From: Pelagibacteraceae bacterium
GTDB taxonomy: Bacteria; Pseudomonadota; Alphaproteobacteria; Pelagibacterales; Pelagibacteraceae
NCBI GenBank assembly: GCA_022763425.1
Contig: JALEGD010000001.1
Coordinates: 1,006,572 to 1,070,571 of the forward strand
DNA: 64,000 nt
Direction: 5' to 3'
Shown: positions 12,507 to 38,578 of the stretch, piece by piece
Layout: every line of letters begins with the position of its first letter
Position numbering within the stretch: position 1 is the stretch's first letter
Translations under genes and position numbers: made by a program
Notes under the pieces: generated by a model
What the model was told of the DNA's origin: nothing
The model's database searches: none
What the model saw: only the letters and a program-made list of their open reading frames with translations

Positions 12507-13739
12507 TTAATAACTCTTAGGAACATCAACTCTTCTTAACATAATGATACCAGCTAACACTAAAACCACAATTGATAAGAAACCAACATCTAAACTAGTG
12601 AAATAAGTAATCGTTCCAACCATAATTGGACCAAGTATTGCTGTTGATCTAGATGCCAAAGTAAATAATCCAAAACCTTGACCAAGATTACTTTGGCTTA
12701 CAAAACTTGTCATAAAGACACGGCTTGCGCTTTGAAGTATACCAAAGAAAAAAGCACCTATTTGAAATATAATAATAAAAATTGTTCTTTCCTGAAAAGA
12801 AACAAGTCCAATTATCGCAAATAAAACAACATATAAAGAATATTGTATTAATAATTTACTTCCAATTTTATCATTCAATAAACCGCCAATAAATGATCCT
12901 AAAGCTTGGATGACGGATGTGATGATGACGAGTTGAAAAATTTCTTTAACGGTTAAACCTAAAACTTTTACAGTAAATATTGCAAAAGAAATTTGTATTG
13001 CAATGATTGCATCAGCGTAGAATAATCTCGCGATCAAAAAGTTTCCAAGATTAGTTATTTTTTTTTCATGATAAACTAAACTTAATAAAGGCTGAACATC
13101 TTCTTTTTTTGTGACAGGTCTAGGTTCTGTAAATTGAATGAAGGCAAATATTGGAATAGAAAAAATTAAAAACCAAATAGCAACTACAACTGGCACAACT
13201 CTAACATGTTCAAACTGAGATTTATCTAAATTTAAAAAAGTTTGCTCTGGTAAAATAAATAAATTTATTAATAAAAGTAATAATGGAATGATTGCAATAA
13301 ATCCTAGAGCAAAACCTAATCCTGATACAAAACCTCGATTATTTTTTTCAGAAAAATCAAATAAGTATGAGTTATAAAACATTTGGCATAACTCATAGAA
13401 AAAATTAGCAATAAAAAAAATAGCTAAGCATTTAAAAATATTCTCAGTACCAGGAGCACAGCTCCATAAAAAAAAAGTTGAAAAAATACAAAGTAAAGTT
13501 GAAATATAAAAAAAATTTCTTCTTCCACCTTTAATTTGATCACTAAATGATCCTAATTTAATTCCAACAATAGAAACAACAATCGCACAGAGTCCAACAG
13601 TCCATTGCCAATAGGCAGAACCAATCTGTGGGTCGCCAACAATTTGGTTAGCAAAGTAAGGTGAAAAAATAAGACTGATAATTAATACCTGAAAAGGTGA
13701 ATTGGCTATATCAAATAGCCCATAAATATATTTTTTCAT
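12507..13739 (-). CDS. MFS transporter, UMF1/Atg22-like
   Basis: 410-residue membrane protein with about twelve hydrophobic helices. The N-terminal YGLFDIANSPFQVLI segment and the LGQGFGLFTLASRSTAILGP segment in the second half are characteristic of the UMF1 (Atg22-like) branch of the major facilitator superfamily. The substrate is unknown. The gene lies 7 bases after the winged-helix regulator gene on the same strand, so the regulator and transporter are probably one transcript. It may be functionally tied to the GMC oxidoreductase downstream, but that is only neighbourhood inference. Confidence 0.85.
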   Translation of the reverse strand: MKKYIYGLFDIANSPFQVLIISLIFSPYFANQIVGDPQIGSAYWQWTVGLCAIVVSIVGIKLGSFSDQIKGGRRNFFYISTLLCIFSTFFLWSCAPGTENIFKCLAIFFIANFFYELCQMFYNSYLFDFSEKNNRGFVSGLGFALGFIAIIPLLLLLINLFILPEQTFLNLDKSQFEHVRVVPVVVAIWFLIFSIPIFAFIQFTEPRPVTKKEDVQPLLSLVYHEKKITNLGNFLIARLFYADAIIAIQISFAIFTVKVLGLTVKEIFQLVIITSVIQALGSFIGGLLNDKIGSKLLIQYSLYVVLFAIIGLVSFQERTIFIIIFQIGAFFFGILQSASRVFMTSFVSQSNLGQGFGLFTLASRSTAILGPIMVGTITYFTSLDVGFLSIVVLVLAGIIMLRRVDVPKSY

Positions 13740-13746
13740 AAAAAAA

Positions 13747-14286
13747 TTATATTTTTTCTTTTACAAAATCATCAATCATACCAAGATTGTTTAATTGACG
13801 AATTAATGCTTTAAAACTTTGAATTGTTTTATCTGCAAATGGAGAATGAATTTTCAAAAACTCTTTACCAACAATTATGCCGTCAACTTTTGATTTTTGT
13901 AAAATTCCCTTTTTAACTAAATTCTCGATTTTTCTTCTTGTTGTTTCTTCTGGCATTTCTAATACATTTGAGATGCTGTTAATTCCAAGTTTTCGATTTT
14001 TAGTTTTAAAAAAACCTTCTAATTGAGTTTGCTGAATATCTTTTTTTAATTGATCCAAACTTGTATTTGCCTCTTTCATTTTTCTTGCCTCATAAATTCC
14101 GTGCTGAAGTACCACTACAATAATCATGAATGTATCAAAGTCTAAATTGTAATCTGTTTTAACTCTTCTGTAATAATCAGTTAAAAAAACTTGAAATGCG
14201 TAAGCGGCTTTTGAAATATCTCCTTCAGGATCTTTTGTGGACTGAACTAATGTTTCTTTACCTGTAAAATTTTTTAACGCGCTCAC
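13747..14286 (-). CDS. Winged-helix DNA-binding regulator (unassigned family)
   Basis: 179 residues. Residues about 103-145 read as a winged helix-turn-helix: NSISNVLEMPEETTRRKIENL, a recognition-helix-like segment, followed by VKKGILQKSKVDGIIV as the wing. The N-terminal half (about 25-95) is helical and may be a dimerisation or sensor part; I do not recognise the family. The start is GTG at 14286, supported by a GAGGGAG ribosome-binding site. Directly upstream are three 12-bp repeats at exact 20-bp spacing, a plausible autoregulatory operator. It is probably co-transcribed with the MFS gene that follows 7 bases later. SAR11-type genomes carry few regulators, so a dedicated one here is notable. 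Confidence 0.75.
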   Translation of the reverse strand: MSALKNFTGKETLVQSTKDPEGDISKAAYAFQVFLTDYYRRVKTDYNLDFDTFMIIVVVLQHGIYEARKMKEANTSLDQLKKDIQQTQLEGFFKTKNRKLGINSISNVLEMPEETTRRKIENLVKKGILQKSKVDGIIVGKEFLKIHSPFADKTIQSFKALIRQLNNLGMIDDFVKEKI

Positions 14287-14320
14287 TTATATAGTTCTCC
14301 CTCAGATCAAGTATTGCTAA

Positions 14321-14372
14321 ACTTAAAATGGGATTTTACAACTCAAAATGGGAAAATAAAACCTAAAATGGG
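14321..14372. repeat. Three 12-bp direct repeats at 20-bp period (candidate operator)
   Basis: Plus strand reads ACTTAAAATGGG (14321-14332), ACTCAAAATGGG (14341-14352) and ACCTAAAATGGG (14361-14372). The AAAATGGG core is identical in all three and starts recur every 20 bases, about two helical turns. The array lies between the outer-membrane barrel gene stop (14385) and the regulator GTG start (14286), so it overlaps where the regulator promoter should be. The most likely binder is the regulator itself; that is inference. Confidence 0.75.
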
Positions 14373-14384
14373 TTTAAAGTATTT

Positions 14385-15125
14385 TTAGAATTTGTAACCT
14401 ATACTACCAACTAAGAAGTCTTGGTTTTGAGAGTCTAAAGTTGAGGAAATTGGACCTTTTCCCATATTATCTACGTATTTTACAGAAAGCTCTAAACGCT
14501 TTGTTACATCCATATCAAATCTAATTGATTTCACTCCTCGTAAATTCACACCCTCAGCATATCCAAGTTTTAAATGAACAGGATAATCAGAAATGCTTGT
14601 AAGGTTTTTTTTATTATACCTTAAATCAAATACTCTTTGAGAGTGTCTTACTCCAGCTAAAACTGCACCATTTGATAACTCTTCTCTATAATCAGCACTT
14701 ATAAATACATCTTTTGAAAAATATTGTTGAATAACGATACCTAAATGAGAATTATCGACTTGTTTTGCCGGATTTTCATCATGCCAAAGTATTTTTCCAT
14801 ACGGATAAAATATAGTGCCTTTTCTCTTATATAATAATCCTAATCTTTGGTTAAACTCGGTATTCATTGTTTCATCACCAGAAGTCGTGTCATTATAATT
14901 GATAACGTTATTAAAACTCTTAATAGATAAATTATCTGTTAAAGGATAGGTAAAATGTAAATCTAAAGCAGGTCCTGGTCTTGTATCATCATAACGTGTT
15001 CCAAGATCATCAACGAGAGTTGTAAAGTACCTAACTCGACCATCAACTTTTAATTTAGTGGTATCTGCTAATAAATCAGTTTTGAAAACTAAAAATGCTA
15101 TAAAAAAAGTAATAATTTTTTTCAT
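14385..15125 (-). CDS. Outer-membrane beta-barrel protein, function unknown
   Basis: 246 residues. A Lys-Lys start, hydrophobic core and small residues near 18-21 (LLADTTK) form a signal peptide. The mature part consists of alternating polar/hydrophobic strands, e.g. KVDGRVRYFTTLV, PALDLHFTYPL, LSIKSFNNVINY, and ends in VGSIGYKF with the terminal Phe typical of substrates of the Bam machinery. Ten to twelve strands are plausible. The family was not recognised. It starts 5 bases after the dxs stop, so it may be read from the dxs transcript. A porin or structural role is inference only. Confidence 0.75.
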   Translation of the reverse strand: MKKIITFFIAFLVFKTDLLADTTKLKVDGRVRYFTTLVDDLGTRYDDTRPGPALDLHFTYPLTDNLSIKSFNNVINYNDTTSGDETMNTEFNQRLGLLYKRKGTIFYPYGKILWHDENPAKQVDNSHLGIVIQQYFSKDVFISADYREELSNGAVLAGVRHSQRVFDLRYNKKNLTSISDYPVHLKLGYAEGVNLRGVKSIRFDMDVTKRLELSVKYVDNMGKGPISSTLDSQNQDFLVGSIGYKF

Positions 15126-37250: not shown

Positions 37251-38578
37251 TAATGAACTGTTTTTTTAATAATTGAAATGCACTTTTGTAATAATTTTTT
37301 ATTATCAGACTCACCCATAATTCTAATTTTAGGTTCGGTTCCAGACTTTCTAACCAGCATCCTTCCTTGACCTTTCATTAATTGATTAGCTTGGTTAATT
37401 GCCTTTTTGCATTTTGGAGAATTAATAATATTTTTATCTTTTACTGTTACATTTTCTAATATTTGAGGAGTAAGTTTGAACAAGTTAAATAGGTTACTTG
37501 TCTTTTTTGATTTTCTTAAGCTAAATAAAACTTCTAAAGCAACTAATAAACCGTCACCGGTTGTTGCAAACTTTCCAAGTATAATATGTCCAGATTGTTC
37601 TCCGCCTAAATTAAAGTTATTTTTTTTCATCACTTCTTTAACATACCTGTCTCCAACATCTGCACGTTTAAATTTAATTTTTTGATTTTTAAAATATTTT
37701 TCTAAACCATAGTTAGACATTAAAGTTCCAACAACCCCGCCTTTGAGTAATCTTTTTTTTCTCCACCTTGTAGCTAGCATTGCAATAATTTGATCACCAT
37801 CAATAATTTTTCCTTTTTCATCACAAATAATAATCCGGTCAGCATCTCCATCAAGTGCTATTCCAATATGAGCTTTATATTTTTTTACCGCTGATTGAAT
37901 TTTATTTGGAAAAGTTGATCCACAATTCTTATTTATATTTAATCCATTAGGTTCAGTTCCAATGGTAATAACTTTTGCACCAAGAGATCTAAGTAATTTA
38001 GGTCCAGCCTTATAACCTGCGCCATTTGCACAATCTAAAACAATTTTTAGTTTCTTAAGATTAAAGTTTTTTGGAAAATTTTTCTTTATAATATCAATGT
38101 ATAGATCAGTACCCGTTTCTAACCTTTTTACTCTTCCTAATTTTTCTGCATTGATAAGGTGCTTTTGAGTATTGGTATCTATAATTTTTTCAATTTTTTT
38201 TTCAATTTTATCTGATAACTTCATTCCATCTGGGCCAAACAGTTTCATACCATTATCATCATAAGGGTTATGAGATGCGGTAATCATGATGCCCATATTT
38301 GCTTTCATACGCTTTGTGATCATCGCTAGTGCGTTGGTTGGCATAGGACCAAAAGTAAAAACGTTCATTCCAGCAGAGGTTAATCCAGATACTAATGCAG
38401 GCTCTAAAGTATAACCTGATAACCTTGTATCTTTTGCAATAATAGCAACGGGTTTATTTTTTTTTGGATTTGTAAAATAGGTCGCCGCGGCCAAACCAAA
38501 TTTAAAGAATTTTTCACCGTTAATTAAACCTTGGTTTACTTTCCCTCTGATGCCATCTGTTCCAAAATATTTTTTCAT
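37250..38578 (-). CDS. glmM: Phosphoglucosamine mutase
   Basis: Converts glucosamine 6-phosphate to glucosamine 1-phosphate for UDP-GlcNAc, hence peptidoglycan and LPS. The 442-residue protein has the FGTDGIRG start, catalytic phosphoserine Ser102 in TASHNPYDDNGMK, the metal loop DGDADR, GGEQSGHI sugar-binding loop and RKSGTEPKIRIM phosphate loop. folP stands directly upstream and ends one base into glmM, the common ftsH-folP-glmM order. Confidence 0.96.
   Translation of the reverse strand: MKKYFGTDGIRGKVNQGLINGEKFFKFGLAAATYFTNPKKNKPVAIIAKDTRLSGYTLEPALVSGLTSAGMNVFTFGPMPTNALAMITKRMKANMGIMITASHNPYDDNGMKLFGPDGMKLSDKIEKKIEKIIDTNTQKHLINAEKLGRVKRLETGTDLYIDIIKKNFPKNFNLKKLKIVLDCANGAGYKAGPKLLRSLGAKVITIGTEPNGLNINKNCGSTFPNKIQSAVKKYKAHIGIALDGDADRIIICDEKGKIIDGDQIIAMLATRWRKKRLLKGGVVGTLMSNYGLEKYFKNQKIKFKRADVGDRYVKEVMKKNNFNLGGEQSGHIILGKFATTGDGLLVALEVLFSLRKSKKTSNLFNLFKLTPQILENVTVKDKNIINSPKCKKAINQANQLMKGQGRMLVRKSGTEPKIRIMGESDNKKLLQKCISIIKKTVH

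Follow-up and report, generated by a model that had tools for sequence, protein, structure and literature searches.

The array of three repeats in front of a winged-helix regulator gene most probably consists of three cognate operators of the CCCA-N3-TGGG type, through which the 179-aa MarR-fold product of that gene, acting as a homodimer, would autorepress the regulator-MFS operon. The first-pass annotation of this DNA had proposed that the adjacent winged-helix protein binds the array and so regulates its own gene. In outline, this proposal is most likely right, as judged by the family-wide association of the site with the regulator genes, while the type of repeat unit had to be corrected.

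Within the window, that is, the whole 64-kb stretch of DNA that was analyzed, the three 12-bp repeats occupy positions 14321-14332 (ACTTAAAATGGG), 14341-14352 (ACTCAAAATGGG), and 14361-14372 (ACCTAAAATGGG) of the plus strand, with starts exactly 20 bp apart, as had been described. They are located upstream of the regulator gene, between the GTG of its ORF and a 246-aa outer-membrane-like gene (14385-15125, minus strand) on the upstream side of the array. No other exact match to ACYYAAAATGGG occurs in the window, and the genome-wide search for further arrays that had been suggested confirmed that the three exact copies in the single-contig genome of 1,211,322 bp are all in the array, with 26 matches at up to one mismatch. 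At up to two mismatches, the window had 26 matches to ACYYAAAATGGG, no more than chance predicts (26.9). Equally spaced 12-mer triples, defined by at most two mismatches between each neighboring pair, at least four G/C, and a spacing of 13-60, were represented by a single case in the window, and 40 dinucleotide shuffles produced none.

The unit had been read as an asymmetric 12-bp direct repeat, a candidate that was rejected because relatives of the regulator show a dyad of the CCCA-N3-TGGG type. On the strand of the regulator gene (minus), the units are the near-palindromes CCCATTTTAGG, CCCATTTTGAG, and CCCATTTTAAG, each an imperfect 11-bp dyad CCCA-N3-TRRG, with units 2 and 3 being imperfect copies of CCCA-N3-TGGG that carry TGAG and TAAG halves on the coding strand. 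With a position weight matrix (PWM) trained without the window's genus, putative operator 1 (CCCATTTTAGG, 14362..14372, minus strand) scored 17.8 bits and putative operator 2 (CCCATTTTGAG, 14342..14352, minus strand) 13.1 bits, the best and second-best sites of the entire 64-kb window. Putative operator 3 (CCCATTTTAAG, 14322..14332, minus strand) was the weakest of the three, with 9.7 bits and rank 11 in the window. A GGGAG sequence at 14297..14301 (minus strand) is the likely Shine-Dalgarno element.

The regulator ORF runs from a GTG at 14286 to 13747 on the minus strand and is followed after a gap of 7 bp by an MFS/Atg22-like transporter gene (12507..13739, minus strand); both had been described in this way, and the two genes are likely co-transcribed. 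Profile, model, and fold comparison identified the 179-aa product as a MarR-fold winged-helix regulator. Its recognition-helix segment PEETTRRK (residues 112-119; 13930..13953, minus strand) is carried by helix 113-125 of the AF2 model (pLDDT 81), and residues E114, T115, R118, and K119 are invariant across 17 family members. No Pfam or NCBIfam model matched the protein at cut-off, PHROGs gave no informative match, and a sequence search of solved structures returned only weak winged-helix matches, the best being PagR (E 0.0053). According to the profile search, it is the sole family member in the source genome, and the possibility of further members there was rejected. The closest named relative is the HIMB114 counterpart (L196) with 64% identity. 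Compared with HIMB114, the regulator diverges far faster than the MFS protein (94% identity), the outer-membrane-like protein OMP (97%), and dxs (97%); its recognition region is nearly unchanged despite the low overall identity. The regulator-MFS adjacency is kept in 15 other nonduplicate loci from several genera, and among the loci examined, an upstream OMP and/or dxs gene is common only to the window's genus (L010-L014) and genus g12 (L015, L099).

The regulator belongs to a family of unnamed winged-helix proteins with the recognition helix P-x-E-T-x-R-R-K. A single-protein search of the genome contigs found no relative, and it was the profile search that did. Family members were present in 293 of the 397 genomes of the order (E ≤ 1e-5), in 116 of the 151 order genomes with a completeness of 90% or more and a contamination of 5% or less, and in 11 genomes (at 1e-4) of a class sample of 289 that included the source genome. 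Two architectures were found, with single-domain proteins of about 150-230 aa and tandem-domain proteins of about 290-360 aa; the members analyzed, 136 loci plus the window, are a subset of those found. SAR11 bacteria are the most abundant heterotrophs of marine plankton and have few transcriptional regulators, according to PMC13198564. This agrees with the earlier characterization of a genome type with few regulators, yet the family itself is widespread in the order. The suggestion that both site and regulator may be new, made when the family could not be named, is in keeping with the window protein's scores below all Pfam and NCBIfam cut-offs and with a literature search, chiefly of openly accessible papers, that found no description of the regulator family or the CCCA-N3-TGGG site. 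Neither is described in the accessible parts of PMC2704228, PMC13198564, and PMC12753301.

The dyad CCCANNNTGGG with at most one mismatch was found within 250 bp upstream of 64 of the 127 member ORFs (18/44 single-domain and 46/83 tandem) and of only 3 of the 186 control genes, while shuffles of the 127 upstream regions gave a mean of 1.35 matches. The control genes for this and the following comparisons were drawn from the same loci as the members. After removal of similar upstream regions, 80 members and 119 controls remained. When 62,460 gapped words were counted, the top word was CAAA-N1-TGGG (27/80 versus 0/119, p = 9e-13, a value that ignores the remaining relatedness among loci), and the next-ranked words were pieces of the same motif. 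Symmetric PWM sites above 10 bits preceded 55 of the 80 nonredundant members and 5 of the 119 controls; for this count and the upstream count, the motif was first noticed in the same loci, many of which are related and thus not independent. Since the pattern had been first seen in the test loci themselves, the PWM was cross-trained between the two architectures. At 10 bits, training on single-domain members recovered sites in 17/46 tandem members versus 4/119 controls (p 8e-8), and the converse in 14/34 single-domain members versus 4/119 (p 1e-7), the former falling at 11-12 bits to 7/46 (p about 0.01).

The association is not universal, with no site above 10 bits just upstream of 25 of the 80 nonredundant members (14/34 single-domain, 11/46 tandem). 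L015 keeps the OMP-regulator-MFS synteny and no site was found there; likewise, no site precedes the SBF gene in L016-L018, where the regulator lies behind an SBF transporter. The OMP-regulator-MFS arrangement at L099 (G043:C1:1236928-1240462) includes a second regulator, broken into two ORFs (80 and 123 aa) and lacking a site, while L019, another copy in that genome, has a pair of sites with a 20-bp spacing. A genome-wide regulon in the source genome was rejected on the basis of the sites examined there: the single perfect CCCANNNTGGG begins at 226240, a copy close to perfect is at 38247, and each falls inside an ORF.

A separate set of 80 loci was obtained from a profile search of named genomes, of which 32 were used after removing 44 that resembled the earlier upstream regions and 4 that were mutually redundant. 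Among its AT-rich (SAR11) members, 17/20 had a site above 10 bits and 10/20 had a site with at most one mismatch. The GC-rich members had a site above 10 bits in 7/12 cases, one with at most one mismatch in 9/12, and an exact site in 6/12; since a one-mismatch match is weak evidence in GC-rich DNA, only the exact sites should be counted there. Five Thauera-type loci with 65-71% GC have an exact CCCATTTTGGG or CCCACTTTGGG, of the form CCCA(T/C)TTTGGG, 35 bp before the ATG of a gene encoding a 155-aa PKETVRRK protein. Overall, 13 GC-rich loci, several of them orthologues, contained 12 exact sites versus about 1.9 expected from composition. In L178, from a high-GC alphaproteobacterium, an exact TACCCATTTTGGGTA lies upstream of a family member; in L176, L177, L180, and L184, the surroundings of the member gene lack an exact site. 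L185, for which a wrong frame was chosen, carries no information on this point, and the start of L265 was miscalled in the separate set. Exact CCCANNNTGGG copies away from the start of the regulator in non-SAR11 loci (L257:969, L268:2465, L273:2253, and L181:1329) are possible other targets.

When each site of the nonredundant set was split into a strong and a weak half, the weak half was found to correspond to the helices of the adjacent protein. Of the 40 tandem proteins whose second helix reads P/A-T-x-x-R, 29 have a site, and their weak halves are TGAA, TGGA, TGGT, or TGAT, with TGGG in 0/45; tandem members with an E-x-x-R-R second helix have TGGG in 4/5, and one further tandem protein was unclassified. 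In single-domain members, the weak half ends in G in 27/35 cases. This pattern is consistent with symmetric sites for homodimers and asymmetric sites for fused pseudo-dimers. Because the helix and half-site classes follow clades, it perhaps represents one or two independent changes.

The spacing of the sites also differed between the architectures. Among pairs of sites above 9 bits and at most 70 bp apart, those of single-domain members were separated by 20 bp (6), 21 bp (3), 28 bp (2), 40-41 bp (3), or other distances (8), so that 20-21 bp accounted for 9/22 pairs and recurred in other genera, and those of tandem members were 32 bp apart in 17/17 cases. Conservation of the array spacing, a check that had been proposed at the outset, was found in part: the exact 20-bp triple is kept in HIMB114, but L011-L014 keep sites with different spacing, and in four of the five genus relatives with sites, the spacing is different or there is a single site. 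A strict pattern, CCCANNNTRGG N9-10 CCYANNNTRGG, had three matches in the 397 order genomes and none for the reversed control. Two are beside family members, one upstream of the regulator in L019 (G043) and the other between a regulator and an inverse-autotransporter gene in G031; the third is within a coding repeat. The pattern misses the window's own array because of the TGAG and TAAG halves of units 2 and 3. The two-site array in G031 (L195, 1480-1579), which separates the regulator from an inverse-autotransporter beta-domain gene, suggests control of an outer-membrane protein. The one non-family match (L193, G115:C17, 55-2454) is a 799-aa ORF that is extremely rich in Met and Gly, with MMGGMDPMMG repeats.

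The promoter of the window was assigned by homology, since its -35 is weak and a consensus scan at the array reported no standard sigma-70 promoter. The -35, TTTTAT (14356..14361, minus strand), is equivalent in position to TTAACA in HIMB114 (L010), and the -10, TAAAAT (14333..14338, minus strand), follows after a 17-bp spacer, also by homology with L010. Putative operator 1 would thus abut the -35, operator 2 would lie in the spacer, and operator 3 would be just 3′ of the -10. Counted from the first base of the best -35, the sites are at -6/+14/+34, exactly as in HIMB114. The single-domain loci L020 and L071 have sites at -14/+14/+35, and tandem members have sites at -6/+26 in many, though not all, cases. 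Rather than reflecting a cooperative oligomer on the array, as had first been proposed, the 20-bp spacing may be set by the promoter.

Sites upstream of the -35, in the spacer, and over the start region point to occlusion of polymerase, i.e., repression. The same regulator and operator could also serve activation or dual regulation, with the upstream site or sites recruiting polymerase, since operator 1 and the first site of tandem members abut the -35 (-6), a position from which activators can also act. We consider this unlikely, as the other sites fall in the spacer (+14) or over or after the -10 (+26, +34/35), which is typical of repression. It is appreciably less probable that the sites are those of some other, global regulator under which these genes happen to fall. 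At L023, L091, and L030, the site indeed adjoins the neighboring gene and is not before the family regulator, but few control genes have such a site (3/186), both of the other near-perfect sites examined in the source genome lie inside ORFs, the form of the half-site tracks the helices of the adjacent protein, and the link between site and family persists in Thauera. An element of the leader RNA, with CCCAUUUUGGG forming hairpins or repeats in the transcript, is very improbable: a full dyad could give a 4-bp stem with a 3-nt loop, but the sites overlap or precede promoter elements, so that most would be untranscribed, the copies in the window are imperfect dyads, and no terminator-like site was found at the array. 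Chance or a recent functionless 20-bp tandem duplication, to which three copies with an exact period might point, is strongly disfavored and scarcely credible, as the 8-bp linkers between the units differ in sequence, the sites are found again in distant relatives and with other distances between them, and HIMB114 keeps the array with a regulator only 64% identical.

Autorepression through the three operators thus remains the preferred reading, and the mechanism that we infer comprises binding, dimerization, repression, and a ligand. The 179-aa protein would bind as a homodimer, with its PEETTRRK helix reading the TGGG-like half-sites; the bound dimers would cover the regulator-MFS promoter upstream of the -35, in the spacer, and in the start region, causing repression; and a signal, perhaps the substrate of the MFS transporter, would release them. 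Across the family, SBF-type (sodium/bile-acid symporter family) genes adjoin members in 26 loci, including L016-L018, L022, and tandem loci, and the site precedes a neighboring gene and not the regulator's own in L023, L091, L093, L096, L030, L105, L110, and others. From the neighboring genes and the positions of the sites, the family looks like a group of regulators that act locally, for the most part on transporters and envelope proteins. A predicted membrane protein of about 73 aa without a Pfam match is often encoded divergently from or beside tandem regulators (L132, L143, L128, and others), with operators in the shared or a nearby intergenic region.

A broader proposal, to which we give about an even chance, is that one undescribed MarR-fold family spans the SAR11 order as well as other Alphaproteobacteria and Betaproteobacteria, with the conserved operator CCCA-N3-TGGG and a code in which an E-T-x-R-R helix reads TGGG/TRGG and a P/A-T-x-V/I-R helix reads TGAA/TGGA. 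Homodimers would occupy symmetric sites and fused tandem dimers asymmetric ones, at a fixed promoter spacing specific to each type (20-21 bp or 32 bp). If true, this would give bacteria credited with little transcriptional control a major local feedback switch acting on their transporters and outer-membrane proteins. The presence of the family in most genomes of the order, together with a readable operator and predicted targets, would make local gene control in SAR11 directly testable in vitro, and the paired single-domain and fused forms would offer a natural experiment on the joint change of recognition helix and half-site.

Among known systems, the MarR family is the closest in fold. The model has the MarR topology, with N- and C-terminal helices on either side of the winged helix, and the best matches are almost all MarR chains, including MepR (5fb2; Z 11.3, rmsd 3.9, 125 aligned) and, as the best Foldseek match, MexR (E 2.1e-3). 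Since the Foldseek E-value is only about 2e-3, this likeness is one of fold, with homology unproven. No curated MarR model matched the window protein at cut-off, and MarR_2 appeared in 4/17 members (best E 0.022). MepR of S. aureus regulates the MepA efflux pump, as its structure entry title states, and is likewise tied to a transporter; a dyad at the regulator's own promoter, here a putative operator, is a further MarR-like trait. The family differs from MarR in a recognition helix that looks CRP-like, a short dyad (CCCA-N3-TGGG), and the inclusion of fused tandem members with asymmetric sites.

CRP reads its half-site through R-E-T-x-x-R, and the E-T-x-x-R recognition helix is shared between CRP/FNR and the window's family. 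HTH_Crp_2 was the commonest Pfam match at E ≤ 0.1 (9/17 members, best E 1.3e-4); even below cut-off, a Crp-type HTH was absent for the window protein, and one tandem member reached 24.5 against a cut-off of 27. CRP/FNR half-sites are TGTGA/TTGAT, whereas those of the family are TGGG, with a 3-bp gap between the 4-bp halves, and the window protein lacks the N-terminal cyclic-nucleotide-binding beta-roll, the N-terminal part of its model being helical. Two tandem members just passed the TrmB model with the HTH part only (29.4 and 26.0 versus 25.6), and the window protein had no TrmB match in the Pfam search. The tandem-member model (pLDDT 89.8, pTM 0.88) has two repeats, and its top PDB match was SarS (1p4x, Sar/MarR) from S. 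aureus, with E 2.3e-3 and a low TM-score of 0.28/0.34. SarS is a fused Sar dimer. Like it, the tandem members would have two winged-helix units per chain, although SarS comes from another bacterial phylum and the window protein itself is single-domain.
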